In this document: positions 72 through 24,755 of the stretch, in pieces
How positions within the stretch are numbered: position 1 is the first letter of the stretch
Layout: each line of letters starts with the position of its first letter
Source: Planctomyces sp. SH-PL62
GTDB lineage: Bacteria > Planctomycetota > Planctomycetia > Planctomycetales > Planctomycetaceae
Direction: 5' to 3'
Assembly (NCBI GenBank): GCA_945905295.1
Contig: CAMDPX010000060.1
Coordinates: 1 to 33,257, forward strand
DNA: 33,257 nucleotides
Translations under genes and position numbers: made by a program
Notes under the pieces: model-generated
Databases searched by the model: none
What the model was told of the DNA's origin: nothing
Seen by the model: the letters and a program-made list of their open reading frames with translations, nothing else

Positions 72-3000
72 TCACGGAGTGATCCGGACTCGCAGCGGGT
101 CGGTCCAGTGCTTCTGCTCGGCGGTGTAGTAGAGGTACGCTCGCGAGGCCGGAGCGGTGTACTCGCCGGGGATGGCTGCGTTCAGAGTGATCGCGAATCG
201 GTGCTCGGCCTGCGGGTGGATCGTTCGCCAATAGCAGAGGACTTCGCGCGGTCGCAGTTCGTAGTAATCGAATGCGCCGGCGTCGCGGAGTTCGTTGAGC
301 TCTTCCGCTCGCGGTTCCAATCCAGCCGGAAGTCCGAGCACCGCGACGGTCATCGGCAGCCCGCGCGCAGTCGTGTTCTTCAGCACCGCTTCGAGACGCA
401 CCGTGTCGCCGGCCCCGATCGTTGGCAGTGTCGTGTTCTCATTCAGCAGCTTGGCCGAGAGTCTCACCGGGCAATTCGAATCGCTCGGCGGCTTCGGCGT
501 GTGGTAGAGCACTTCCAGCGCGAACGACAGACGACCGAATCCAGGAGCACGCAGTTCGAGTTCCGTCTCTCCCGGCACCAGCTTCGAGCCGATCCCGGTC
601 AGTTCGATCGTGGAACTGGCGTCCGTCCCTTCGGGCAGAGTCATCTGTGCCAGCACCTCTTGATCGCGCACGACTTGCAGCGATCCGCCGCGACGAGCAA
701 CTCCCGCCGTCTTCGCGAAGCCCACCAGAGCCTTCAGCGCCAGAACCGTCGCTTGCGTCGAACCAAAGCCGCCGTGTCCTTGGCGATGAGTGACAATCCA
801 CTTCGCGGCTCGGTCGGCCGAGCCGTTGAATTTCGGGCTCTTCAGCCAGGCGATCGTGGCCAGCGCGGTCGTTTCCATCTGCAGCGACAATCCACCGCTT
901 TGCGTCACGGTGGTAGAGCCGGTCAGGCTGCCATCCACCGCTTGCAGTTCGGTCAGCGTTTGCAGAAGACGTTCGCCATCGGCCGTTCGTCCTGCATTGA
1001 GCAACGCCGCAGCCGAGAGCGCGACTAAGTACGAATCACGCGAAGCGTTCGCGACGGCAGTGAGATGATCGAGTTCGGTTTTGAGATCTGAACTTGGAGT
1101 TTTGGAATTCGCCGCAGCATCGGCTTCCGTCAGTGCCCACAGCACGTAGGCATCGACGATGTCTTGCTGCACCGACCAGACATGCAGATGTCGCGGGTTG
1201 CGATGGAAGCCTCCCTGTCCGTTGCGGCGATTGAGCAACCAAGTTCGCGTCCGTTCCACCATCACGGCATCGACCGGCATGACTTCGGCCATGTCGTGAT
1301 ACTGCATCAGCCCAAAGGCGGTGAGTGCCTCGTGGCCGGGATCGCTGCCGAACCATTCGTAGCCGCGCTGCTTGCACTCGAAGCTGGTCAGCTTCTGATA
1401 ACCGCGATCGAGGAAGTCTTTCGCCTTCCGAGTGACGGCGGGATTCGCGAGCTGATTCTGCTGGAGATACTGCAACGCCATCGTATTGGGATAGTTCGTG
1501 GAGGTAGTTTGCTCGAAGCAGCCGTGCGGTTCACCGAGGATGCTCTCGGCGCCTGACAGCAGATCGGCCAGCGGCGACGGATACGCTCGCAGCGTGACCG
1601 CCAGCGAACCGGGGACGGCATCGCTGGGAATCTTCAGTTTCAACCGTTCGGTGCCGTTGATGACTCCGGCCAGCGATTCGCGAATCGGATAGCCGCTCGG
1701 AGCGACATGCAGTTTGCGCCGCACGGCATCGTTGAATCCTCCAGCAATGCCTCGCAGCTCGATGAACGCATCCGACTCGGCCGAGCCGTGTGTGACATTC
1801 AGCGAGATGTGCTCGCGGCGTTGATCGTTGGCCGCGACCGTGACGCTGCGAGATTTGTCGCCGACCACTTGCAGTGTTCCATCCGCCGACAATCCGATCT
1901 GCACTTGTTGTTGCTCGGACGTGCGATTGATGACCGCGACCGGCAGGTCGATGCGATCGCCGGTCGTGACCTCCAGCGGCAGCTTCGGTTCGATTTGGAA
2001 CGGCAGCCGAGACAGCACCTCGCCACCACCGGAGCCGATGCGGCCATCGCCGGTGTGTGCGTCGGCCAGGACTCGGAAGGTCGTCACCGAATCGGACAGG
2101 TCGAAGCGAATCGTCGCCTCGCCATTCGCGTCGGTGATCAGCAGCGGTTGCCAGAACAACGTCTCGGTGAAGTCTTCGCGCAGTCCCGATTCGCGTCGCA
2201 CATGTCGGTGAGCATACTCGCGCACCGGAAACCGCAACTCATCGAGCAACTGGTTACTCAGCCCATCGGCATCCAACCCGCGAGCTTCCAACAAGCGCCG
2301 CAAGTCGTTCGCACTGAGCAATCGTGTCGCAGGCTGATCCTTGCCAGAATTAAAAGGTGCTCCCGCTCCACCGCCGGCGAGGTTCTTGCCCTCGTCAACC
2401 ACGAATGGCTTCGCGGCCGGATCACTGGGTTCACGACGACTCGCCTTAGGAACGATTGCCGGCGGAGTCGCTCGAAACCTGCGGTTCTCGTTGTCTGCGA
2501 GCTTAGCCGCATCCACGAAACGCAAAGCTTCGCTCGACGCCTCGGAGGGCGAGCTTCGATCAAACATCATGTCCGATACGGGTGCTGATGATCCCTGAGC
2601 CATACCTCGCACAACGCTTTTGGATGCCGCGGCTTTCGGTCCCAGATCCTCACCCCCAGTGCAACCAACCAGCCAACAGGACGTCCCCGCTGTGGCGAGC
2701 CACAGCCAGGCTCCTACACCGGTGGCCGTCTTCCAGCGCGGACGCATCAGGATCGAAAGCAGCCACGCGGTGAGAATCACGACCAACACGACGCGGCTGT
2801 CGTCCAGCAGTTGGCTCCACGCGGCGTTCATTTTCCGCGAGTGGATTCCCGCCTGTTCGTTGATCACCGGCCCGTTATCGAACTCCGCCGGTTGATTCGC
2901 TTGGCCGTCGAGGTCGATGAGCTTGGCGACTTGCTGACGAAAGTCCGGATTCGGCTCCGATGTGTTCTGCACAACGAACCGCCGCCAGCCCTGAGTTCCC

Positions 3001-5339
3001 AGTAGCAGATCGACCGCCTCAGCCGCCGATGCCATTGGCGAGCGGGGCGGCGTCAGCCCCCCGGTGCGTTCGCCAATTCTTTCGCCATCAAACCGGGGGG
3101 CTGACGCCGCCCCGCTCGCCAGAGAATCGGGTAGATAAAAGTTCGCGTGCTCCAGATCCTCCGGCTTGTTGATCTCGCTGGTGAGCAGGAAGTGCGTGCG
3201 CAGCGTCGGCCGCTCGTGTTCATCGAGACTCAACGCCGCATCGTCGACGACGGTGACCCCCAACATCGCAGCCGTCGGCCGGTCATGCTCATCGGTGACT
3301 TGCAGAGTCAGCCGCAACGGATCGCCGGGCGACGCGTGGGGCACGTTTTCAACGTGCCCGTCCGATTTGTTTTGTCTCGGCCCATTCAGAGTCGTTGCCT
3401 GGCCGGGCACGTTGGAAACGTGCCCCACGAGACGTACTCGCAACTTCGCGTCGCTCTGACGAAACACCAATCGCTCAACCAGCGGAGTCGCCGGAGTCGT
3501 CAGCGTGTTGGACACCGTCAGCCGGATCACTCCGCCGACGTTGGCCGCGATCGGCAGCTTCAACGAAGTGCTCCCGCGAGCGAGCGTGAACTTCGACTCG
3601 CCCACGCTGACGCCACGACACGATGCCTTCACCAGAATCGGCAACGGAGAATCCGTGCGGACTTTGAACGAGATCGCTTCATCCGCCGCAAACACTCCGC
3701 TTCCGGTGTCGAGCACCGGCAGGCCACTGGTCACTGCGGGCAACTCCGGCGCGTTTGTCACGTCGACTGGCCGAGCGACCTTTAGCACATATCGTTCGCC
3801 GCGAGATGGAGTGAATCGAAAACTGCCCATTCCGTCACGCACCGTCTCCGCACGAGCAACCTCGCGGCCTTGTTGATCGAGGATCTGTCCGGCGACATGA
3901 ATCGGTTTGCCGAGCGGATTCCTCGCCGCGAAGTACACGCGGTTCTCCAAGCCGGCGACGAGGTGTCCGCCTTCGGGATAGAAGTCGACTTTCACTTTGC
4001 CGAGCTGAATCGGGATCGTCTTCACCTGCGTCTCCTGAGTGCCGCCGTCGTCAATCGACACGGCCAGTTGCCCGTCGCCATCAGCAATGTGTTGAGGCAA
4101 TCGGAACGAGACGACGCACGTGCCGACTTCGCTGGTCAGCGACTCTTGTCGAGCGACTTCGCGGCCATCGACGGTCGCGGTGATGCGGACCTTCGCCTTC
4201 ACGAGCGGTCCACCTTCGGCTCGCGCGGCGGAGAAGTCCGCTTCGACCAACTCGCCGGGGCCGTGACTGCGACGCTTGAACTCGATGTCCTTCTTGAATC
4301 GCGGCACGCGATATTGCTGCACCAGCAACTTTCGTTGCTCGTCCGGGAAGAACCCATCCAGGCTCTTGGCAACCAGCGTGTACTCGCCCCCCGTCGCCGA
4401 GGCGGGCAACGCGAATGCTCCGTTACCCACTCCACGCTGCGACACGCCGTCACGCTGAGCGTTCGGAACGGCTGCACCGCTGGGATCGCGTAACTCAAAG
4501 TGGATTGGCACATCCACGTCCGCCCGCAACGAATGCCGTTCGAGAGTCAGCGAGCGGAACAAGATCGTCTCCCCCGGCCGATACAGCGGCCGATCGACTG
4601 TGAGATACGTCAGGCACCGCGTCGGCTCCAGCGGCAACGTCGTGTGCGCGGGAGTCATCGAGCCATCAGGTGCGGTCGCGGTCACATGCAGTTGCGAGTC
4701 CTTCGGCAGTTTGAGATTCGAAGGCACAGAGTATTGCACTTTGCCCGATGTGTCGGTGCTCACGTCTTGCCGATGCAGAACCGCGTTCGCCGCGCGGACC
4801 TCGACGTGCAGCATTGCCGGCATGGCGAAGACTCGCCGGTCACCGCGAGTGACCGTGAACTGAAACTGATTCAGCGTCGAGCGCGCTCCGTCAGCAACGC
4901 TCATCGCCTGCAAACGGATCGGCAGCATCGGCGAGTTCGGGAGACGCCGCGTAAATCGCATTCCGACGATTCCGCACATCAGCGCGATCGCCACGCTCGC
5001 AATCATCCGTCGCACGAATCGCCAGCGAGCGACACGTCGCACGTCAGGGATCGGGTGTTCAAAATTCAAAATTGGCCGAGTTGACGCAGCGACGTCGGGT
5101 TTCGCGTAATCGGCCAATTTTGAATTTTGAACACCCGACCCTTTGCGTTTTTCGTGCGGTACGCCGCGCAACTTCGCCGCCTCGGCGAACTGCCCGGTCA
5201 GCTTGAGCACCTCGGCCCAGGCGAGCGCGACGTCCGCCTCGGACTCGATCCGCTTCCGCCATCGTGCTGCTTCGGCGTCGTCGAGCAACCCGTAATGCAA
5301 TTCGAGCAGCGTTTGCTGGATGTTGTTTTCGTTTGACAT
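72..5339 (-). CDS. Membrane-anchored alpha-2-macroglobulin family protein with anti-sigma-like N-terminus
   Basis: Bacterial A2M proteins are thioester protease traps of the envelope. This one has 1755 residues. Residues 1-65 are a cytoplasmic-type helical region (ELHYGLLDDAEAARW) resembling anti-sigma N-termini but without zinc-finger cysteines. A membrane segment lies at about 112-127, followed by MG-type beta domains. Two more hydrophobic segments lie at about 850-866 and 877-897, then the A2M/thioester domain with CFEQ at 1274-1277, so the Cys-Gln thioester pair is kept. I chose the ATG at 5339: the longer frame to 5375 reads into a repeat and encodes a different-looking leader. The ECF sigma gene lies just upstream on the same strand. 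Three unrelated palindromes are inserted in frame at residues about 68-97, 637-669 and 740-768. Family assignment is firm; the sensor role is inference. Confidence 0.9.
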   Translation of the reverse strand: MSNENNIQQTLLELHYGLLDDAEAARWRKRIESEADVALAWAEVLKLTGQFAEAAKLRGVPHEKRKGSGVQNSKLADYAKPDVAASTRPILNFEHPIPDVRRVARWRFVRRMIASVAIALMCGIVGMRFTRRLPNSPMLPIRLQAMSVADGARSTLNQFQFTVTRGDRRVFAMPAMLHVEVRAANAVLHRQDVSTDTSGKVQYSVPSNLKLPKDSQLHVTATAPDGSMTPAHTTLPLEPTRCLTYLTVDRPLYRPGETILFRSLTLERHSLRADVDVPIHFELRDPSGAAVPNAQRDGVSQRGVGNGAFALPASATGGEYTLVAKSLDGFFPDEQRKLLVQQYRVPRFKKDIEFKRRSHGPGELVEADFSAARAEGGPLVKAKVRITATVDGREVARQESLTSEVGTCVVSFRLPQHIADGDGQLAVSIDDGGTQETQVKTIPIQLGKVKVDFYPEGGHLVAGLENRVYFAARNPLGKPIHVAGQILDQQGREVARAETVRDGMGSFRFTPSRGERYVLKVARPVDVTNAPELPAVTSGLPVLDTGSGVFAADEAISFKVRTDSPLPILVKASCRGVSVGESKFTLARGSTSLKLPIAANVGGVIRLTVSNTLTTPATPLVERLVFRQSDAKLRVRLVGHVSNVPGQATTLNGPRQNKSDGHVENVPHASPGDPLRLTLQVTDEHDRPTAAMLGVTVVDDAALSLDEHERPTLRTHFLLTSEINKPEDLEHANFYLPDSLASGAASAPRFDGERIGERTGGLTPPRSPMASAAEAVDLLLGTQGWRRFVVQNTSEPNPDFRQQVAKLIDLDGQANQPAEFDNGPVINEQAGIHSRKMNAAWSQLLDDSRVVLVVILTAWLLSILMRPRWKTATGVGAWLWLATAGTSCWLVGCTGGEDLGPKAAASKSVVRGMAQGSSAPVSDMMFDRSSPSEASSEALRFVDAAKLADNENRRFRATPPAIVPKASRREPSDPAAKPFVVDEGKNLAGGGAGAPFNSGKDQPATRLLSANDLRRLLEARGLDADGLSNQLLDELRFPVREYAHRHVRRESGLREDFTETLFWQPLLITDANGEATIRFDLSDSVTTFRVLADAHTGDGRIGSGGGEVLSRLPFQIEPKLPLEVTTGDRIDLPVAVINRTSEQQQVQIGLSADGTLQVVGDKSRSVTVAANDQRREHISLNVTHGSAESDAFIELRGIAGGFNDAVRRKLHVAPSGYPIRESLAGVINGTERLKLKIPSDAVPGSLAVTLRAYPSPLADLLSGAESILGEPHGCFEQTTSTNYPNTMALQYLQQNQLANPAVTRKAKDFLDRGYQKLTSFECKQRGYEWFGSDPGHEALTAFGLMQYHDMAEVMPVDAVMVERTRTWLLNRRNGQGGFHRNPRHLHVWSVQQDIVDAYVLWALTEADAAANSKTPSSDLKTELDHLTAVANASRDSYLVALSAAALLNAGRTADGERLLQTLTELQAVDGSLTGSTTVTQSGGLSLQMETTALATIAWLKSPKFNGSADRAAKWIVTHRQGHGGFGSTQATVLALKALVGFAKTAGVARRGGSLQVVRDQEVLAQMTLPEGTDASSTIELTGIGSKLVPGETELELRAPGFGRLSFALEVLYHTPKPPSDSNCPVRLSAKLLNENTTLPTIGAGDTVRLEAVLKNTTARGLPMTVAVLGLPAGLEPRAEELNELRDAGAFDYYELRPREVLCYWRTIHPQAEHRFAITLNAAIPGEYTAPASRAYLYYTAEQKHWTDPLRVRITP
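3036..3121. repeat. Palindromic repeat family A, copy 2, in frame inside the A2M gene
   Basis: Arms 3036-3065 and 3092-3121 form a perfect 30-bp inverted repeat with a 26-nt spacer. The right arm is identical to 31-60. Each arm contains an inner GGGGC/GCCCC pairing. It encodes an extra loop of about 30 residues rich in A, S, G and P, between YLPDS and the EAVDLLLG segment. Confidence 0.95.
3335..3429. repeat. Palindromic repeat family B, in frame inside the A2M gene
   Basis: Arms 3335-3360 and 3404-3429 match at 25 of 26 positions around a 43-nt spacer. Each arm folds on itself (GGGCACGTT pairs with AACGTGCCC in the left arm). The protein reads GHVSNVP and GHVENVP from the two arms, a signature of the insert and not of A2M domains. 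Confidence 0.93.
5051..5138. repeat. Palindromic repeat family C, in frame inside the A2M gene
   Basis: Arms 5051-5079 and 5110-5138 form a perfect 29-bp inverted repeat with a 30-nt spacer. The arm is AT-rich in the middle (TTCAAAATTCAAAATT), unlike the GC-rich host gene. It encodes about residues 68-97, between the cytoplasmic N-terminal region and the first membrane segment. Confidence 0.95.
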
Positions 5340-5358
5340 GACTGAACTCACAAAAAGG

Positions 5359-5484
5359 GGAACACTGATCGACACTAATCTTCGCTAATGAATCAGGAAC
5401 AATCCTTGAAACTTGCGGATCGATGTTTGACAGATCTGCTTTTCTGCTTCTTGATTAGTGCTAATTAGTGGCGATTAGTGTTCC
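5359..5484. repeat. Imperfect inverted repeat, family D (ATTAGTG type), between sigma factor and A2M genes
   Basis: Left arm 5359-5397 and right arm 5451-5484 are diverged inverted copies built from the tandem words GATTAGTG, CTAATTAGTG and GCGATTAGTG. The right arm overlaps the last codons and stop of the sigma gene (stop at 5475-5477), so the element supplies that protein's C-terminus. The left arm lies in the A2M leader region. Confidence 0.75.
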
Positions 5485-9465: not shown

Positions 9466-11619
9466 ATGCTGAAGACTCACGCCGTCGGAATCGACTTGGG
9501 GACGACGTATTCCTGTCTCTCGTATCTCAACGAACATGGCGAGCCGGTGACGCTGCCCAACCAAGAAGGGGAGATGACCACGCCGTCGGTCGTCATGTTC
9601 GATGGCAATGACATCATCGTCGGGACCGAAGCCTTGCGAAACGCGGTGCTCAAGCCGACGCACGTCGTGCAGAATGCCAAGCGATACATCGGCACGAACA
9701 AGTCCTGGACCATCGAAGGTAAGGAGTACACGCCGGTCGATGTCGGAGCACTCGTGCTGCGGAAGATGCTCGAATCGGCCAAGGAACAAATCGGCGAGGT
9801 CACGCAAGCGGTCATCACCGTGCCGGCCCAGTTCAGTGACTGGCAGCGGCAAGCGACGGTCGAGATGGGCTTCAAAGCCGGCCTGAAGCGCGTGGACATC
9901 ATCAACGAACCGGTCGCCGCCGCGTTGTGCTACGTGCTGGGGAGCGAAGGCTTGTGGTTCACTGAACTGACCGACGAGCAGCGGATCCTGGTTTACGATC
10001 TCGGCGGCGGCACGTTCGACTTGTCGCTGGTGAAGTACCACAAGGACGAAGTCAAAGTGCTGGCCAGCACCGGCGACTTGAAGCTCGGCGGCATCGACTG
10101 GAACGAAGCGTTGCAGGAGGCAATCTGCGACCGGTTCGCGCGCGAGTTCGGCGACGATCCGCGCCGCGATCCCGAATCCATGCAGCTTCTGGCGATGGCG
10201 GTCGAGAACACGAAACGCTCGCTGACCGTCCGCCCGCGAGCCGCTCTGACTTGCTCGCACGGCAAGCATCGCAAGGTCTATCAAATCGAACTGCCGGAGT
10301 TCGAGAAGCTGACGAAACCGCTGCTCAATCGGACCATCGCGATCACTCGCGATTTGCAGAAGGCATATCAATTCGGCATCAAGCAGACCGACACGATTCT
10401 GACCACCGGCGGCTCGTCGCGGATGCCGTCAATTAAGAAGGCGCTGGGCGAACTGGGCTTCCGCACGCTCAACACGTCGCTGTCGCCGGACCAGTCGATC
10501 TCGCACGGAGCGACCTACTACGCCGGCATGTTGCTGACCAACGCCGATTTCGCGAAGTCGATCCTGAGTCCGTCAGCCAGCGCGAAGCTCGCCAAGATCA
10601 AGCAGCACAGCGTGAATGCTCGCGCGCTCGGCATCTTGATTCGCGACACCGAGAAGAACACACGCATCCCGCACTTCCTGATCCCCGCGAATTCCGAACT
10701 CCCCACATCGATCACGCAGACCTTCGGCACCGTCATCCCGAACCAGCGCCGAGTCAACCTGCACATCGTCGAAAGCGGCACCGTCGCCGATCAGCGGTAT
10801 GTCGAACTCGGCACCTGCATCGTCGAAGACTTGCCGAAGAACCTGCCGGAACAATCGTTGGTGGAAGTCACGATCACCTACAACGAACAAGCCCGTGTGG
10901 AAGTCACGGCAAAGGATGTCACCAGCGGCAAGCAAGCTCAGACGGTGATCGTGCGGCAAGAGAACGTGGTCGCGAAGAAGCCCTCGTCCGAGAAACCCGC
11001 AGCACCGGTCGCCGATGAGGACGCACAAGCCGCTTGGACTTCACCGTCGCTCAAAGCGACCAGCGGAGTCACCGCCAAGCCCGCAGCGACGAATCCGAAC
11101 CGCGAACGTCAGGGAGCCGCCCCGCCTGTTCCGCAGAAACCCGCCGCAACCGCGCCGGCCGCGAAGCCCGCCGCGACGAGACCGGCTCAAGCGCCTGCAA
11201 AGCCAGCTCAATCACAAACGACCGCTGGTCCGAAGTCTGTGCTCAGCAACCCGCGACTCGAGGAGTCCAACCAACCGGTTCCGCTCTGCAACGAATGCGG
11301 CGAAGCGTTGAACTTCAAGGGCCTCTGTCCGGCCTGCGGTTGGAACGCGGCCACGAAGAGGCCCGTCGCTGGTGCGAAACCTCCGGTGAAGCCAACCCCT
11401 ATCGCCGCCAAACCAGGACCACCCAGGCCCCCTGTGCCACCGGCCAGAAGTCTCGCTCCGCCCACCAAACCCGCCGCTCCAAAAACGAAAGTCACGGACG
11501 ACGACGAATTGATGGAGATGGCGATCACGTCGATGAACAAGCCGGGCACCGCGAAACCACCGATCAAAAAGCCGCCGCTCAAGAAGGGCGAAGACGAGTT
11601 TTGGAAAGACGAGAAATGA
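9466..11619 (+). CDS. Hsp70 (DnaK-like) protein with disordered tail and C-terminal zinc ribbon
   Basis: A chaperone-type ATPase of 717 residues. The nucleotide-binding domain spans about 1-370, with phosphate-1 loop GIDLGTTYS (8-16), phosphate-2 loop YDLGGGTFDLS (from 177) and a TTGGSSRMP adenosine-site segment. A beta substrate-binding domain covers about 385-505. The usual helical lid is not visible. In its place comes a Pro/Ala/Lys-rich, probably disordered stretch, a zinc ribbon with Cys608, Cys611, Cys621 and Cys624, another Pro-rich stretch and a Lys/Glu-rich end. The usual DnaK linker (DVLLLD) is also not recognisable. No dnaJ or grpE lies nearby, so this is likely a specialised paralogue and not the housekeeping DnaK. 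Confidence 0.9.
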   Translation: MLKTHAVGIDLGTTYSCLSYLNEHGEPVTLPNQEGEMTTPSVVMFDGNDIIVGTEALRNAVLKPTHVVQNAKRYIGTNKSWTIEGKEYTPVDVGALVLRKMLESAKEQIGEVTQAVITVPAQFSDWQRQATVEMGFKAGLKRVDIINEPVAAALCYVLGSEGLWFTELTDEQRILVYDLGGGTFDLSLVKYHKDEVKVLASTGDLKLGGIDWNEALQEAICDRFAREFGDDPRRDPESMQLLAMAVENTKRSLTVRPRAALTCSHGKHRKVYQIELPEFEKLTKPLLNRTIAITRDLQKAYQFGIKQTDTILTTGGSSRMPSIKKALGELGFRTLNTSLSPDQSISHGATYYAGMLLTNADFAKSILSPSASAKLAKIKQHSVNARALGILIRDTEKNTRIPHFLIPANSELPTSITQTFGTVIPNQRRVNLHIVESGTVADQRYVELGTCIVEDLPKNLPEQSLVEVTITYNEQARVEVTAKDVTSGKQAQTVIVRQENVVAKKPSSEKPAAPVADEDAQAAWTSPSLKATSGVTAKPAATNPNRERQGAAPPVPQKPAATAPAAKPAATRPAQAPAKPAQSQTTAGPKSVLSNPRLEESNQPVPLCNECGEALNFKGLCPACGWNAATKRPVAGAKPPVKPTPIAAKPGPPRPPVPPARSLAPPTKPAAPKTKVTDDDELMEMAITSMNKPGTAKPPIKKPPLKKGEDEFWKDEK

Positions 11620-11730
11620 GGGCTTAGGGGCTGGGGGCTAGGGAATCGCAAGAACCTTGATGACCGGACTTGTTGCCTCGACCCTCACTCTGTCAGCCTT
11701 CGCTAACCCCTAACCCCCAGCCCCTAACCC
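11620..11730. repeat. Inverted repeat, family G (GGGGCTGGGGGTTAGGG type)
   Basis: The left arm 11620-11643 starts directly after the Hsp70 stop codon, and the right arm 11708-11730 ends 11 bases before the menC ATG. The arms pair over about 22 positions with one bulge and one or two mismatches; the spacer is about 64 nt. It fills most of the intergenic space. The C-rich right arm leaves no Shine-Dalgarno before menC. Confidence 0.8.
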
Positions 11731-11741
11731 CTCCTCCAATC

Positions 11742-15910: not shown

Positions 15911-15975
15911 GTAGCCACGTTCGCCAGAACGTGGGTCACGCGAGGAAAACCCCACGTTCTGGCGAACGTGGCGAC
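15911..15975. repeat. Palindromic repeat, family F-related (GTTCTGGCGAAC core)
   Basis: Arms 15911-15935 and 15951-15975 match at 24 of 25 positions around a 15-nt spacer. Each arm holds the inner hairpin CGTTC-GCCA-GAACG seen in family F. It starts 6 bases after the DUF4838 stop and ends 17 bases before the next gene, so it could insulate or terminate, but no T-run follows. Confidence 0.92.
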
Positions 15976-16713: not shown

Positions 16714-19700
16714 TCAGGGAGCAACTTCCGGGAGCTTGCGGCGCGAAGTCGATTCCGTTGTCAACGACTTCTTCCAGTCGATGTGAGCGGTGCCCGATCC
16801 GCTACTGACTCCATTCAGTCCGTGCGCCAGGACGGTCACGCGCAGTCCGATCAATCCGTTGGCCGGCAAGTTCTTCACGTCAGCGGTTCCCCAATGGATC
16901 GATTCCTCATTCGGTTCCAGCAACCCAAGAGCCAGTCCTCTCGCGCCGACTGCGGCGTTCAACTCATCGGGCAGAAGCGTTCCCTCGGAGTGTCCCCCAC
17001 CGCCTCCCGCCGACCGCATTTCGATGCGCCATCTGCTGTGACTGCCAGCGACCGCTTCTTCGAGGATTCGCGACCAACGGAATTGCCCGGTGATGGGCTT
17101 CTCCGCCGAGGCCAAGAGATACGCGCAATGCGGCGGGACGAGTACGGTCTCGTTGTCGCGGCGCGTCACGATTTCAAAGGTCGCTACTTGCCCGGCCGGA
17201 ACGGTGAACTCCACGCCGATGCCGTTCGTGATCGTGCCCAGCGGAGGCAGGGCCGTGAAATCTTGTGAGACCGTTTGAACTCCACTCGAACCATTGAACA
17301 TCGCGGTGACTCCGAGCAGCAGAGCCAGTGGCCCGAACACGCTCAACACGCCGACCACGGCTCCGACTCCCGTGAACAGCCACTCGATGAACTTGCCGTG
17401 CTTCTCCCCCTGCGATTCAAACGCGGCGACGACTCGCGGCCGAGTGAAGTACACGAGCTGCCCGATCAGCCACGTCAGGCCGACAACCATCATCCCGCCG
17501 AAGAGCACCACAATCGTGAACAGCGTCACAAAGTCTTGAGCATCGGGATCGACTCCTTCGGCGATCACCGTCTGCTGGATATCCGCGTAAAGATCAGGGA
17601 GCACGAAGCGAGCCAAGTACGGAGCGTCGAACACCACCGAGGCTAAGCCGTAGATGCACACACCCAGCGTCAACTTTCTCGCCCACGGCTCCCACAGGAA
17701 CAACCCGATGCTCGCCGCAAACATTCCGGCCGCCATCGTGAAGCCCAACACCGCATCGACTTGCTCCCACAATTGCCAGAGGCGCGGCATCGGCTTGGCG
17801 AACTCCGCTGGCTCTTCCATCGCGCAGACCAGCATCAACACGACCGCTCCGACGAGATTGAACGTCGCCAGCACAGGGACCAGCTTCGGCAGCGGAGTCA
17901 CTCCCAGACTTAGCGAGTCGGAAGGCATGGGAGCAGCCTGCATTGTCACTGCTCGGCGCGCAAAAAAGACGACGTTCAGAATGATGACGCTCAGCCAGAA
18001 CAGGAGCGCCCCGCTGGCGATGATCATGATCTTTGGATGCCCTGGATAATTATTTTCGTTGATGCCATAGAACCATTGAGCCGTATTCGTCGCCATCCCG
18101 AACAATCCAAACAGGATCGCCATCGGAATGCCGACTCGACTGCCGTAGCTAGGCCGAATGACACGGCCTGAGTCATCAGAGGGCGAGGTGGCAGATTCCA
18201 GTGATGCACGACGGCGAGCAAAAAAAAGGATGTGCAGAATAATGGTGGTCACCCAGAACAAGTTCGCCCAACTCATGAGGACGAACATTGCCGGCTGTTG
18301 TTGAAAATTGTCTTTTTGGCCAAATACCGGAGCAAAGTTCATCATCGCCACCGCGCCCAATCCGAACAGGACCGCCACTGGAATGCCGACTTGCTTGGCA
18401 TAGCTCGGATTCGGCACCGTGGCGGACTGAGCCACCTCACGGAATGGCTCTGGCGGATCACGTTGCTCAATCGGTGCCGAGACCGGCGCAGGCACCGGTT
18501 GTTCCCACAACGATTTTTCTTCAACTTCAATTCGGCAGCGACACGAAAGAATGTGCGCGTCGTACCAGACCACGATTTCATCGCCGATCCCGTCGCCGGC
18601 TTTAATCGTCGAGCGGATCTCCATCTTGCCCCCGAACCCACCCTGACGAACCAAGCCATCATCGAGATAAAGGCGCTCCGCGAAGGCTCGCCCACCGTCG
18701 AACACAATCGTGTGTCCCTTGAAATTGACTTTCCAGCACAAGCGTCGCTTGATGCGGGACGAGTAGGCCAAGAGTCCAATTCCGGCGAGCGCGGCCATCG
18801 CGCCTGCGCAAAGCAGGATCGAACGGTAGCCGGTCAAGGTCTTGGCCAGGGATGCCAGTCCCATCGGAAACGTCATCAACAGACTGACAAGACCGATAGC
18901 GGCCACGAGATGGTGCAGCCTTCGGTTCCGTGTCTCAGTGACATCGAGCAGCTTATGGACTTGAGTCGTCAGGCGGCGGCTTTGATCGCGGTGTTGATCG
19001 TCAGGCGTCATGGGAGCTCGGTCGGCGATTGCCGAAAACGACGTCACGGCTGACTTCAATTCGCTGGCGTGCTGATAGCGCTGTTCTGGCTGCTGCTCCA
19101 GCGCTCGCAGCACGATTTCGTCCAACCGCACATCGACTTGAACTCGCTTCGACGGCGGAGCGAACCGGCCCATCGGCAACTCGCCAGTGAGCAGTTCGTA
19201 GAAGACGACTCCCAGCGAATAGATGTCGGCGCGGTGATCGACTTCGCTCGAACCCTGCATCTGTTCGGGAGCCATGTACCGCAGCGTCCCCATCACCTGA
19301 TGCGTCGCCGTCAGCGAATGATCGCTGGCGTCCTGGCCCAGCAGTTTCGCGAGGCCGAAGTCGGCGATTTTCACTCGGCCCCGTTTGTCGATGAGGATGT
19401 TTTCCGGCTTGATGTCCCGATGCACGACCCCTTCGTCGTGAGCGAACTGCAACGCCTCACAAATCTGCGGCACGATCGCCAACGCCTCGGCCGACGTGAG
19501 CGCGCTCGTAGTGACCCGATTCATCGGGTCTCGCGCCGCGTTTGGTGACTGATCGACCGCATGAATGCGGTCACTACGAGCGAGCACCTGCCGCAGGTTC
19601 GCACCGTCGACGAACTCCATCACGATGTAGCACAGGCCGGCCGTCTCACCGAAGTCGTACACGGCGACGATGTGCGGATGACTCAACCGCGCCAGCGCAC

Positions 19701-20055
19701 GAGCCTCTCGCTGGAACCGTTCGGTGAACGCCGGATCGCGACTGATCTCCGGTGGCAGAATCTTGACCGCCACCAACCGATCCAATCCCGGTTGCCGAGC
19801 TTTGTAAACCGCCCCCATGCCTCCCTTGCCAAGCAGTTCCAGAATCTCCAATTGCGGAAACAGCGGGGTGAGTTCCTCGACCGTCGGCGGGACAAATCCA
19901 GAAGCCGGCGGAGTCAGCTTGGTTGGCCCCGGATCAACGAATGCCGCCGATTGGCTGTCGGTGCTGGCCTTCAGCAGGCAGCGCGGGCACAAACCCGCCG
20001 GAGAATTCACCGGGATTTCAGCATCGCATTGCGGGCAGCGTCGCGGTTCGCTCAT
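16714..20055 (-). CDS. Membrane Ser/Thr protein kinase with N-terminal zinc ribbon
   Basis: A Hanks-type kinase of 1113 residues. A zinc ribbon (Cys7, Cys10, Cys23, Cys26) precedes the kinase domain at about 69-340: GKGGMG loop 76-81, Lys98, HRDIKPEN 212-219 with Asp214, DFG 232-234 and an APEQ segment. All catalytic residues are present. The rest has many membrane segments: a pair near 385-430, a soluble insert of about 90 residues, two similar modules of about 85 residues each (both containing VGIP and FFARR), more helices, and a final region of about 200 residues that is probably extracytoplasmic. A palindrome inserted in frame adds about 27 residues (159-185) between the hinge region and helix D/E. 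It is transcribed with the upstream sigma gene. Confidence 0.93.
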   Translation of the reverse strand: MSEPRRCPQCDAEIPVNSPAGLCPRCLLKASTDSQSAAFVDPGPTKLTPPASGFVPPTVEELTPLFPQLEILELLGKGGMGAVYKARQPGLDRLVAVKILPPEISRDPAFTERFQREARALARLSHPHIVAVYDFGETAGLCYIVMEFVDGANLRQVLARSDRIHAVDQSPNAARDPMNRVTTSALTSAEALAIVPQICEALQFAHDEGVVHRDIKPENILIDKRGRVKIADFGLAKLLGQDASDHSLTATHQVMGTLRYMAPEQMQGSSEVDHRADIYSLGVVFYELLTGELPMGRFAPPSKRVQVDVRLDEIVLRALEQQPEQRYQHASELKSAVTSFSAIADRAPMTPDDQHRDQSRRLTTQVHKLLDVTETRNRRLHHLVAAIGLVSLLMTFPMGLASLAKTLTGYRSILLCAGAMAALAGIGLLAYSSRIKRRLCWKVNFKGHTIVFDGGRAFAERLYLDDGLVRQGGFGGKMEIRSTIKAGDGIGDEIVVWYDAHILSCRCRIEVEEKSLWEQPVPAPVSAPIEQRDPPEPFREVAQSATVPNPSYAKQVGIPVAVLFGLGAVAMMNFAPVFGQKDNFQQQPAMFVLMSWANLFWVTTIILHILFFARRRASLESATSPSDDSGRVIRPSYGSRVGIPMAILFGLFGMATNTAQWFYGINENNYPGHPKIMIIASGALLFWLSVIILNVVFFARRAVTMQAAPMPSDSLSLGVTPLPKLVPVLATFNLVGAVVLMLVCAMEEPAEFAKPMPRLWQLWEQVDAVLGFTMAAGMFAASIGLFLWEPWARKLTLGVCIYGLASVVFDAPYLARFVLPDLYADIQQTVIAEGVDPDAQDFVTLFTIVVLFGGMMVVGLTWLIGQLVYFTRPRVVAAFESQGEKHGKFIEWLFTGVGAVVGVLSVFGPLALLLGVTAMFNGSSGVQTVSQDFTALPPLGTITNGIGVEFTVPAGQVATFEIVTRRDNETVLVPPHCAYLLASAEKPITGQFRWSRILEEAVAGSHSRWRIEMRSAGGGGGHSEGTLLPDELNAAVGARGLALGLLEPNEESIHWGTADVKNLPANGLIGLRVTVLAHGLNGVSSGSGTAHIDWKKSLTTESTSRRKLPEVAP
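19503..19582. repeat. Palindromic repeat family H, in frame inside the kinase domain
   Basis: Arms 19503-19524 and 19561-19582 match at 20 of 22 positions around a 36-nt spacer. A nested GACCC/GGGTC hairpin lies at 19513-19530. It encodes about residues 159-185 of the kinase, between NLRQVL and LTSAEALAIVPQI, which are normally nearly adjacent in this kinase type. Confidence 0.88.
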
Positions 20056-20123: not shown

Positions 20124-20160
20124 ATCTGAGATTTGAAATTTCAAATTTGAGATCTCAGAT
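20124..20160. repeat. AT-rich inverted repeat, family I
   Basis: Left arm 20124-20138 (ATCTGAGATTTGAAA) pairs with 20139-20146 plus 20154-20160, interrupted by seven bases. It lies between the sigma factor stop and the kinase start on the minus strand. It is markedly AT-rich against a GC-rich background, which suggests an inserted element. Confidence 0.75.
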
Positions 20161-20172
20161 CTCAGATACCCG

Positions 20173-21737: not shown

Positions 21738-23105
21738 GTGTCACAGTCCTCGATGATTCGGCCAATCGCCGGTCGCCAGCCACGACGAGACTTTCTTCGT
21801 GCTTCGGGTGTCGCACTCGGAGCAATCTCTGGAATCGGAACTTCTTTCGCGCGGGACGCCTCCGAATCGTCGTCGCCAGCCGCTCCCGCTCAGCGAGCGA
21901 TCGTCCTCTTTTTGCAAGGGGGATGTTCGCAGCTCGACTCATGGGATTTGAAGCCCAACGCTCCGGTCGAGTACCGAGGTGAGTTCGATTCCATCGCGAC
22001 GGCGACTCCCGGCTACCGAGTCAGCGAGCACATGCCGATGCTGGCCGCGAGGACGAATCAATTCAATGTGCTGCGGAGCGTCCATCACGGCACCCCCAGT
22101 CACGAGGCAGCGATTCACTGGGTGCTGACCGGCTACGACTATCCGGGAGCGAACACGACCACGAAGAATCGGAACGACAAGCCTTCGGTCGGTTCTTTCG
22201 TCGCGAAGATGCGCGGCTCCAGCAAGCCTGGTTTGCCAGCATACTTTTGCGTGCCCGACAAAGGGCAGCTTGGCGATCGCGTGCGATATGCCGACTCGCA
22301 CTTCTTGGGCATGGCCTACTCGCCGTTTGAGTCCGGTCCCATCCCGGTCGATGCCGAGTCGCCGTATCGAGTCCCTCAACCGCTGGTCATGTTCCGCGAC
22401 ATGCCGCTGACTCGCTTCGGCGAACGGCAAGGATTGTTGCAACAGTTAGACGGTTTCCGTCGCGAAGCCGATGCCTCGGGGATGATGTCCGGCATGGATT
22501 TGTTCCGACGCACGGCGCTCGACATGATCAATCATCCGGTCACACAAGCCGCGATCGATCTCTCGAAAGAGACGTTGGAAACTCGGCAGCGATACGGCAG
22601 CAATAAGTTCGGCCAGCGAGTCTTGATGGCTCGCCGCCTGGCCGAGGCCGGCGTGCCGTTCACGTTGGTCAATCTGGCCGACAACCAGGATTGGGACACA
22701 CACACCGACAACTTCAATTCGATGAAGACGCGACTCCTGCCTTTGTTGGATCGCGCCGTCGCGACGCTGCTCGATGAACTCAGAGAGCGTGGGCTGCTCG
22801 ACACAACGCTGGTCGCGGTCGTCTCGGAATTCGGACGCACGCCGAAGATCAACAACAACGCCGGCCGCGATCACTGGAGCGATGTCTTCTCCGTCATGCT
22901 GACCGGTGGCGGGTTGAAGACCGGCCAAGTGCTCGGCACCAGCAACGCTCGCGCGGAGATCCCGCAGGACCGGCCGATTCACTACAACGACGTCCTGGCC
23001 ACGATCTATCAACAGCTCGGCATCGCCACCGACCGAGTCTTCATGCACGAAGGCCGGCCCGTGCCGATTCTGTATCAGGGGACTCCGATCCCGGAATTGA
23101 TTTGA
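21738..23105 (+). CDS. DUF1501 family protein with Tat leader (first of tandem pair)
   Basis: A 455-residue member of DUF1501, a sulfatase/alkaline-phosphatase-like fold very abundant in planctomycetes, function unknown. The twin-arginine leader RRDFLRASGVALGAIS predicts export of a folded protein. Family marks are FLQGGCSQLDSWDLKP near residue 55 and VSEFGRTPKINN with GRDHW near 370-385. I chose the GTG at 21738 because GGAGAG lies 7 bases upstream; an in-frame ATG at 21753 and a TTG at 21723 are alternatives. The usual DUF1549/DUF1553 cytochrome partner is absent; a second DUF1501 gene follows. Confidence 0.9.
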   Translation: MSQSSMIRPIAGRQPRRDFLRASGVALGAISGIGTSFARDASESSSPAAPAQRAIVLFLQGGCSQLDSWDLKPNAPVEYRGEFDSIATATPGYRVSEHMPMLAARTNQFNVLRSVHHGTPSHEAAIHWVLTGYDYPGANTTTKNRNDKPSVGSFVAKMRGSSKPGLPAYFCVPDKGQLGDRVRYADSHFLGMAYSPFESGPIPVDAESPYRVPQPLVMFRDMPLTRFGERQGLLQQLDGFRREADASGMMSGMDLFRRTALDMINHPVTQAAIDLSKETLETRQRYGSNKFGQRVLMARRLAEAGVPFTLVNLADNQDWDTHTDNFNSMKTRLLPLLDRAVATLLDELRERGLLDTTLVAVVSEFGRTPKINNNAGRDHWSDVFSVMLTGGGLKTGQVLGTSNARAEIPQDRPIHYNDVLATIYQQLGIATDRVFMHEGRPVPILYQGTPIPELI

Positions 23106-23167
23106 AAGTAGACGAGTCACTCCGTGACTCGATTCGGATTCGAGTCACGGAGTGACTCGCCTACTTT
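23105..23167. repeat. Palindromic repeat family J (GAGTCACTCCGTGACTC)
   Basis: Arms 23105-23131 and 23141-23167 match at 26 of 27 positions around a 9-nt spacer. Each arm is itself a hairpin (GAGTCAC-TCC-GTGACTC). The left arm begins at the last base of the first DUF1501 stop codon, and the right arm ends 14 bases before the second DUF1501 start. Confidence 0.95.
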
Positions 23168-24688: not shown

Positions 24689-24755
24689 ATCAGCCGGAAC
24701 GCGCTAGCGTCCGGTTTTTTCCACCCGAACCGGACGCTAGCGCGTTCCGGCTGAT
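24689..24755. repeat. Palindromic repeat family K, with a possible terminator
   Basis: Arms 24689-24716 and 24728-24755 form a perfect 28-bp inverted repeat around an 11-nt spacer. The arm core CGCTAGCG is itself palindromic. In the plus direction the left arm can fold (CCGGA/TCCGG) directly before a run of six T at 24715-24720, so it could terminate transcription from the second DUF1501 gene. The T-run is part of the spacer, so this may be incidental. Confidence 0.9.

Follow-up and report, generated by a model that had tools for sequence, protein, structure and literature searches.

In-frame palindromic elements of several families at re-used sites in protein genes of a planctomycete genus

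Rickettsia palindromic elements (RPEs; Ogata et al.) are inserted in frame in unrelated protein genes, and the peptides that they encode have been modelled as solvent-exposed, according to the available sections of two reports (PMC10969869, PMC3767692). The second of these, in the sections cited here, describes orthologues in which different RPE groups occupy the same or nearby sites; this paper, on R. japonica, considered both insertion hot spots and a single diverged insert, and inclined towards a common origin (PMC3767692). Intragenic copies are also known for repetitive extragenic palindromic (REP) sequences of the GTAG/CGTC kind: the available parts of Di Nocera et al. (2013; PMC3733652) describe REP dimers within open reading frames (ORFs), several insertions in one gene and, in Xanthomonas recB, different REPs at about the same site. 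Section 16 of that paper gives the motif GGGGWSAS for the terminal inverted repeat (TIR) elements of the transposases named TIRYTs. Here, we analyse a stretch of 33,257 nucleotides from Planctomyces sp. SH-PL62 (GenBank assembly GCA_945905295.1, contig CAMDPX010000060.1, positions 1 to 33,257; hereafter, the window), in which a gene of the A2M family carries three palindromes in frame. At the orthologous sites of related species, palindromes of the same or of different families were found, or none. We consider it likely that these inserts are non-autonomous palindromes of the REP/TIR type that are moved by Y1 transposases, and that selection retains those copies that lie between genes or, within loops and linkers, keep the reading frame.

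Three palindromes in an A2M gene and their relatives

The host gene, at 72-5375 on the minus strand, was identified from its Pfam matches (MG2, A2M, TED_complement and bMG10), its open frame and its orthologues; translation likely starts at an ATG at 5339. The palindrome at site A (5051-5138; family F3 by clustering) has 29 of 29 arm positions paired, that at site B (3335-3429; family F2, GTGGGGCACGTTTTCAACGTGCCC) 25 of 26, and that at site C (3036-3121; family F0, of the CGTCAGCCCCCCGG type) 30 of 30. Palindromes, here and below, are given without a strand. The three arms are mutually unrelated, with local alignment scores of only 4-6, and the ORF contains no internal stop, its frame remaining open through all three elements. 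The site B element comprises two REP-like hairpins in facing orientation and encodes the peptide GHVSNVP...GHVENVP; the element at site C encodes ASGAASAPR...TGGLTPPRSP. Folded as RNA, the three elements yielded -82.5, -56.7 and -53.2 kcal/mol (z of -13.2, -7.4 and -11.4). An earlier interpretation made from the letters alone (the sequence-only reading) had claimed three unrelated palindromes at these places in an uninterrupted A2M frame, and this observation is confirmed.

Sites B and C correspond to turns of a few residues in homologues from other genera: inserts were absent from all six homologues that reach site B and from all seven at site C. Among three orthologues of the same genus, 82-85% identical, one has a remnant at site C and two lack a palindrome at site A. 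This comparison with orthologues, a check suggested in the sequence-only reading, supports its interpretation. Site A has a conserved N-terminal segment on one side and a hydrophobic, membrane-helix-like stretch on the other (judged by eye); the frame classifier described below scored it as one-sided owing to its short N-terminal flank, and its in-frame status is taken from the alignment of orthologous proteins. AlphaFold2 models of the segment containing sites B and C, together with three orthologues, had a mean pLDDT (predicted local distance difference test) of 35.6, so the structure map was discarded. In a search of solved structures, 49 of 50 matches fell on the A2M/TED half and one on residues 190-302, with none on the insert region. 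An Rfam scan of the window gave no match at the gathering threshold. The A2M gene of one relative, G010 (L129), has a fourth variable site at alignment columns ~1427-1444, where the insert NYLKSQISNLKSQISNSKSE consists of short tandem-like repeats and is not a clean palindrome.

The genome, which is metagenome-assembled, comprises 8.6 Mb in 476 contigs, of which 1.77 Mb, the larger contigs, were sampled for palindromes, defined as inverted repeats with arms of at least 20 bp and at least 85% pairing. In 1.57 Mb of this genome, 408 such repeats were found; an order-2 Markov shuffle of these 1.57 Mb, run once, contained none, and the repeats are therefore not a chance product of composition. The extended set comprised 452 palindromes in the 1.77 Mb, and 400 kb of unselected G010 sequence contained 105. 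The first 408 formed 88 arm clusters, 32 of which had at least three members; four clusters of low-complexity, tandem-like repeats (F21, F24, F28 and F29) were kept in all counts. The elements, about 50-150 bp long, belong to dozens of families, some of which are distantly alike: F1 and F3 share GGGGTC, and F5 and F7 share GCGCTAGC. Other genera yielded two palindromes in 113 kb, a figure that covers A2M loci only and is unfit as a genome-wide density.

Across the whole genome, a 21-mer of the F0 arm of site C occurs 204 + 214 times on the two strands, and the F2 hairpin of site B 111 + 99 times. Matches to the site A element are weaker and number 22, several of which are the element's own reverse; the expectation that the arms recur elsewhere in the genome thus holds for sites B and C and less clearly for site A. 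Exact F1 arms number 173 + 173 in this genome (G000), 69 + 79 in G010, 64 + 59 in G002 and 0-9 per strand in the other nine genomes. Reversed-pattern controls for F0, F1 and F2 gave zero in all 12 genomes. The families differ in where they are most abundant: F0 in G000, G007 and G010; F1 in G000, G010 and G002; F2 in G000, G002, G005 and G006. Such differences are what separate expansions would give. A second F0 palindrome outside the A2M gene, which the sequence-only reading had proposed from the sequence at 1-60, is indeed present, cut short by the start of the contig (C60), with which the window opens. Many contigs start or stop inside an F0 palindrome, including the window and contig ends of G007 and G005. 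These repeats probably break assemblies, and the copy numbers are accordingly lower bounds.

Frames around the palindromes were called with a home-made dicodon model (87% frame accuracy on 180-bp windows). At 84 of the 408 palindromes both flanks were coding in one open frame, 22 were frame-shifted on the same strand and five contained a stop; the remaining 297 were one-sided, non-coding, opposite-strand or at an edge. The in-frame share, 84/106 against an expected one-third, represents a strong excess (p = 4e-22). Within the larger set, 95 of 452 palindromes were in frame, compared with 4090 of 6000 random points, taken away from palindromes, that fell in in-frame coding sequence. These data indicate that genes are avoided about threefold and that the survivors within genes are mostly in frame. 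The 84 in-frame elements sit in 58 ORFs, of which 18 hold at least two, an accumulation that the sequence-only reading had not foreseen beyond the A2M gene. Extrapolated from the 1.77 Mb of larger contigs, the genome may contain some 460 in-frame inserts in total.

The host genes are ordinary and unrelated, and include a polyketide-type synthase, kinases, an SNF2 helicase, cytochrome-c-type planctomycete proteins and an M56 peptidase. The synthase (L136:1805-9139, minus strand; identified with Pfam), of 2445 residues, contains six in-frame palindromes of three families, at residues 605-633, 705-725, 1152-1174, 1632-1659, 1760-1789 and 2064-2094. Five of the six lie outside every best Pfam match listed, a listing that gives no location for a second PP-binding stretch; the exception, at 1152-1174, is contained in KAsynt_C_assoc (1104-1225), an extension of the linker type. 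The elements of several kinases and PSD1 proteins are enclosed by a Pfam domain match, and insertion is therefore not restricted to interdomain linkers. The proposal that such palindromes are tolerated in loops or linkers is supported by the turns at sites B and C and by the synthase elements, and less so by these kinase and PSD1 elements.

Re-use of orthologous sites by different families

We compared the three A2M sites with those of the orthologues in G002, G007 and G010. Site A, occupied by F3 here, contains F0 in G010 and no palindrome in G002 or G007. Site B contains F2 here, an F3b type in G002, an F5 type in G007 and a lone 16-bp F1 arm in G010, that is, four families in four species, one of them as a single-arm remnant. 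Apart from the GGGGTC end common to F1 and F3, these families have nothing in common by the arm similarity test. Site C contains F0 here and in G010, a degenerate F0 in G007 and a 14-bp remnant in G002.

Orthologous sites were readable in relatives for 41 of the 452 elements, those in the regions compared: L136 and L139 (picked as rich in in-frame elements), the window (picked for the finding) and the 400 kb of G010. Two palindromes were scored as different families when their arms failed the similarity score. For in-frame sites, the 42 element-by-genome pairs comprised eight with the same family, 12 with a different family and 22 without a palindrome, although a few pairs scored as lacking one do have a palindrome in degenerate form (E377, E378 and site C of G007, for instance). 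Counted by element (n = 20), eight had a different family in at least one relative, six the same family only and six none. At random in-frame coding points (395 points), a palindrome was present in two of 633 pairs. The difference between 12/42 and 2/633 is about ninetyfold (Fisher p = 5e-14), for pairs that are not independent and regions partly chosen as element-rich. Over all site classes, 75 pairs gave 18 same, 23 different and 34 none, against 6/735 in the controls. Part of a common arm, 10 bp or more, was present in seven of the 22 in-frame pairs without a palindrome, compared with 4.1% of controls.

A serine/threonine kinase gene in the window (16714-20055, minus strand; Pkinase at residues 70-338) provides a further case. 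In the loop between VYDFG and YIVMEF, six sequences of G002, G006, G007 and G010 contain four kinds of palindrome-encoded peptide. The kinase of this genome has only ETAGLC there; its own insert, an F10 palindrome (19503-19582) in frame within the kinase domain, lies some 16-20 residues further on, so that the relatives' palindromes, of other kinds, occupy an adjacent loop of this gene. The relatives of this gene (L173, L174, L178 and L188) are otherwise very similar sequences, paralogues included.

Overall, mobile DNA seems to land repeatedly in certain protein loops, filling them again and again. F2, F0, F5 and F3 occur at shared sites without arm similarity, which does not fit one diverged insert. 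The data thus favour insertion hot spots over a single diverged insert, the question raised for RPE-4/6/7.

It is conceivable, though doubtful, that the sites are re-used by in-place replacement, whereby a new palindrome prefers an older one or is exchanged for it, the transposase or repair acting on hairpins, so that occupied slots attract the next element. The 12 of 42 in-frame pairs with different families at one site are compatible with this mechanism. So are two sites in G007: one (E337) has an F1 remnant beside a new palindrome where this genome and G010 keep an intact F1, and at the other (E341), an 11-bp remnant of a different kind of arm adjoins the palindrome. By contrast, only one of the 23 different-family pairs has, outside the new palindrome, a remnant of the family that occupies the site in this genome. 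Moreover, at the place of a G-rich intergenic palindrome (11618-11733; comparison with relatives), three different palindromes occur in G000/G010, G002 and G005, and G004, G006 and G011 have only 6 bp, indicating that no older element is needed. A speculative extension, 'palindrome slots', would have loops in proteins of this genus serially recolonised by unrelated mobile palindromes, since an occupied slot, forming a hairpin when the DNA is single-stranded, would itself draw in the next element or be swapped for it, with the arms of in-gene copies kept matched by arm-to-arm correction. We regard this extension, too, as rather unlikely. If true, mobile DNA would act as a system for exchanging peptides of ~20-35 residues, so that species differ in the peptide found at fixed positions of their proteins.

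The window contains five further palindromes at the threshold used for those of the A2M gene. Besides the elements already described, an F4 palindrome, tagged with GTAG, lies at 15914-15972; F4 is also found in G010 and is degenerate in G007, and G002 has an F3-type element there. An F32 palindrome is located at 23105-23167 and an F7 palindrome at 24689-24755. Beside the kinase gene, at 20124-20167, there is an AT-rich, overlapping palindromic repeat unlike the hairpin families in character.

Arm pairing, transposases and mobility

Arms and loops were compared in 18 orthologous same-family pairs, comprising only pairs still recognised as palindromes. Of 486 arm base pairs, 449 were unchanged, 29 were changed on one side, seven were changed on both sides and still paired, and one was changed on both sides and unpaired. 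Base changes affected 45 of 972 arm positions (4.6%) and 106 of 475 loop positions (22%). The seven compensatory double changes compare with about 0.35 expected if the arms changed independently, about one double change of any kind being expected; one-sided arm changes were four times as many as paired ones. Within families, changes shared by the two arms exceeded independence in eight of eight (F0, 94 vs 32; F1, 59 vs 23; the weakest, F6, 3 vs 1.3), counts that are inflated by shared ancestry. The arms of a copy thus change together while the loops drift, through either arm-to-arm correction or selection on pairing.

The retained pairing, together with the very stable RNA hairpins, is also what would be seen if the inserts were functional additions under positive selection, as new loop peptides or as RNA hairpins regulating the A2M mRNA. 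We regard this explanation as improbable. Sister species show unrelated peptides, and even losses, at one site; loops change far more than arms; and the hosts are many unrelated kinds of gene.

We consider transposition by Y1 enzymes more probable. The genome has 13 Y1_Tnp loci, and at seven of them the transposase match is flanked on either side by palindromes of a single family: F1 at L030, F3 at L031 and L032, F26 at L033, F6 at L034 and L035, and F8 at L036. The F3b type found at site B of G002 is also present at L032. Eight of the 13 proteins were scanned against NCBIfam. At L026-L029, the ORF picked was not the transposase frame, and these proteins were left aside. The L033 protein scored above the cut-off for RAYT (REP-associated tyrosine transposase) and those of L030, L031, L032 and L034 below it; L024 and L025 were IS200 above the cut-off, and L036 matched both RAYT and IS200 below theirs. 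The F3-flanked Y1 genes at L031:721-2055 and L032:1342-2403 have a DnaA-like C-terminal segment (NCBIfam, well below the cut-off). An F3 palindrome also lies at L031:1364-1463, within the open frame of the F3-flanked transposase gene and past the Y1 match.

A search for target-site duplications of 2-8 bp in nine families, with ends defined by the seed, never found more than three copies of any family to match. HUH transposition is not expected to produce such duplications. The elements might instead be ordinary miniature inverted-repeat transposable elements (MITEs), derived by deletion from DDE insertion sequences that carry terminal inverted repeats, since they are short, non-autonomous, bounded by inverted repeats and present in high copy number. 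The missing duplication signal and the Y1 transposase genes flanked by several families, F0 and F2 not among them, leave this origin with little to recommend it, a shade less even than positive selection, although F0 and F2 may still be of this kind. Local origin by fold-back copying (template switching), with palindromes that do not move, would produce perfect or near-perfect arms in each copy and paired arm changes, but is made highly implausible by hundreds of identical arms at unrelated loci, even though such copying may be the reason why arms stay matched.

We therefore return to transposition by Y1 enzymes, for which the following course can be proposed. The palindromes would probably move as single-stranded hairpin DNA, through Y1 (HUH) transposases of the RAYT/TIRYT/IS200 kind, and would insert without the duplication signal sought in the nine families, striking genes and gaps alike. 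Selection would then purge the gene-breaking copies, leaving survivors in intergenic gaps or, stop-free and in frame, in loops and linkers; this step is suggested by the observed in-frame excess and by the loop or linker position seen in comparison with homologues. Tolerated places being few and an old insert dispensable, a place may be refilled by whichever family is expanding in that species, which would give the re-use observed. Older copies presumably decay to the single-arm remnants found at several sites. Within a copy, the arms would stay complementary, partly by paired changes, as the loop drifts, as the 18 orthologous pairs suggest.

Several observations weigh against this account. 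The boundaries of the insertions are unclean, with palindrome-free relatives holding 6 to about 50 bp of other sequence, and the accuracy of the frame calls is a weakness. The surroundings of the 13 transposase matches, to about 1.5 kb, showed neither F0 (site C) nor F2 (site B), and six of the 13 Y1 loci lack a matching palindrome pair. G010 is rich in F1 arms, yet its best match to the F1-linked L030 transposase has only 36% identity, so the presence of the transposase does not track copy number; across the 12 genomes, F1 copies and the L030 transposase showed no relation. The positions immediately beyond the arms are conserved within families (F1 reaching 2.2 bits), which may reflect either the ends of the elements or a target preference, and seed-defined ends could hide a shifted duplication. 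Given the low pLDDT, the surface placement of the inserts suggested in the sequence-only reading stays conjectural. Finally, we infer movement from copy number and from presence and absence; none was observed directly. Overall, the interpretation of that reading, mobile palindromes tolerated by their host proteins, is supported, and the re-use of sites by other families adds to it a feature that it had not foreseen.

Comparison with described palindromic elements

In-frame insertion in protein genes is common to RPEs, as known here by description, and to the elements studied here. The present system differs in its setting, a planctomycete genome of 8.6 Mb, in its dozens of families of about 50-150 bp and in the Y1 transposases beside several of them. 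It shares with REPs and bacterial interspersed mosaic elements the many short hairpin copies, often in inverted pairs. As for their association with RAYTs, F3, the family of site A, flanks Y1 genes, whereas F0 and F2 were not found beside any, and one of the eight proteins scanned passes the RAYT cut-off.

As for the GTAG of intragenic REPs, the motif is, by eye, at or near the outer end in F4, F6, F10, F12, F13 and F15. F2 begins with GTGG and F0 has an internal CGTC, while the elements at sites A and C lack GTAG at the hairpin foot; F0 and F2 were set against descriptions of REPs and not against published consensus tables. Re-use is common here (eight of the 20 in-frame elements tested), whereas the available parts of Di Nocera et al. 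contain a single mention. With respect to TIR elements, F1 and F3 flank Y1 genes and begin with GGGGTC, and F3b (GGGGTCAG) fits GGGGWSAS; F1 and the site A copy do not. Unlike TIRs, each copy here is a closed palindrome with a variable loop, copies also lie within genes, with F1 reaching its 173 + 173 exact arms, and the transposases of L031 and L032 carry the DnaA-like segment. The target-site duplication typical of DDE-type MITEs was not seen in the nine families, whose ends are seed-defined.

Among the matches listed in a literature search, judged by titles and the openings of abstracts, none stood out as treating palindromes inside planctomycete genes, beyond PMC3733652, which in its available parts mentions the phylum. 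In-frame palindromes are already known as RPEs and intragenic REPs, and different REPs at one site had been described before, in recB. The present analysis adds a genus of planctomycetes in which dozens of families occur and the re-use of sites by different ones has been measured, together with remnants of former occupants and paired arm change in place. So many families, along with sister genomes and copies linked to transposases, make the choice between a hot spot and one diverged insert testable. The genome thus represents a natural experiment on the acceptance of foreign peptides by loops of A2M proteins, kinases and polyketide-type synthases, and on the survival of near-perfect palindromes within genes.

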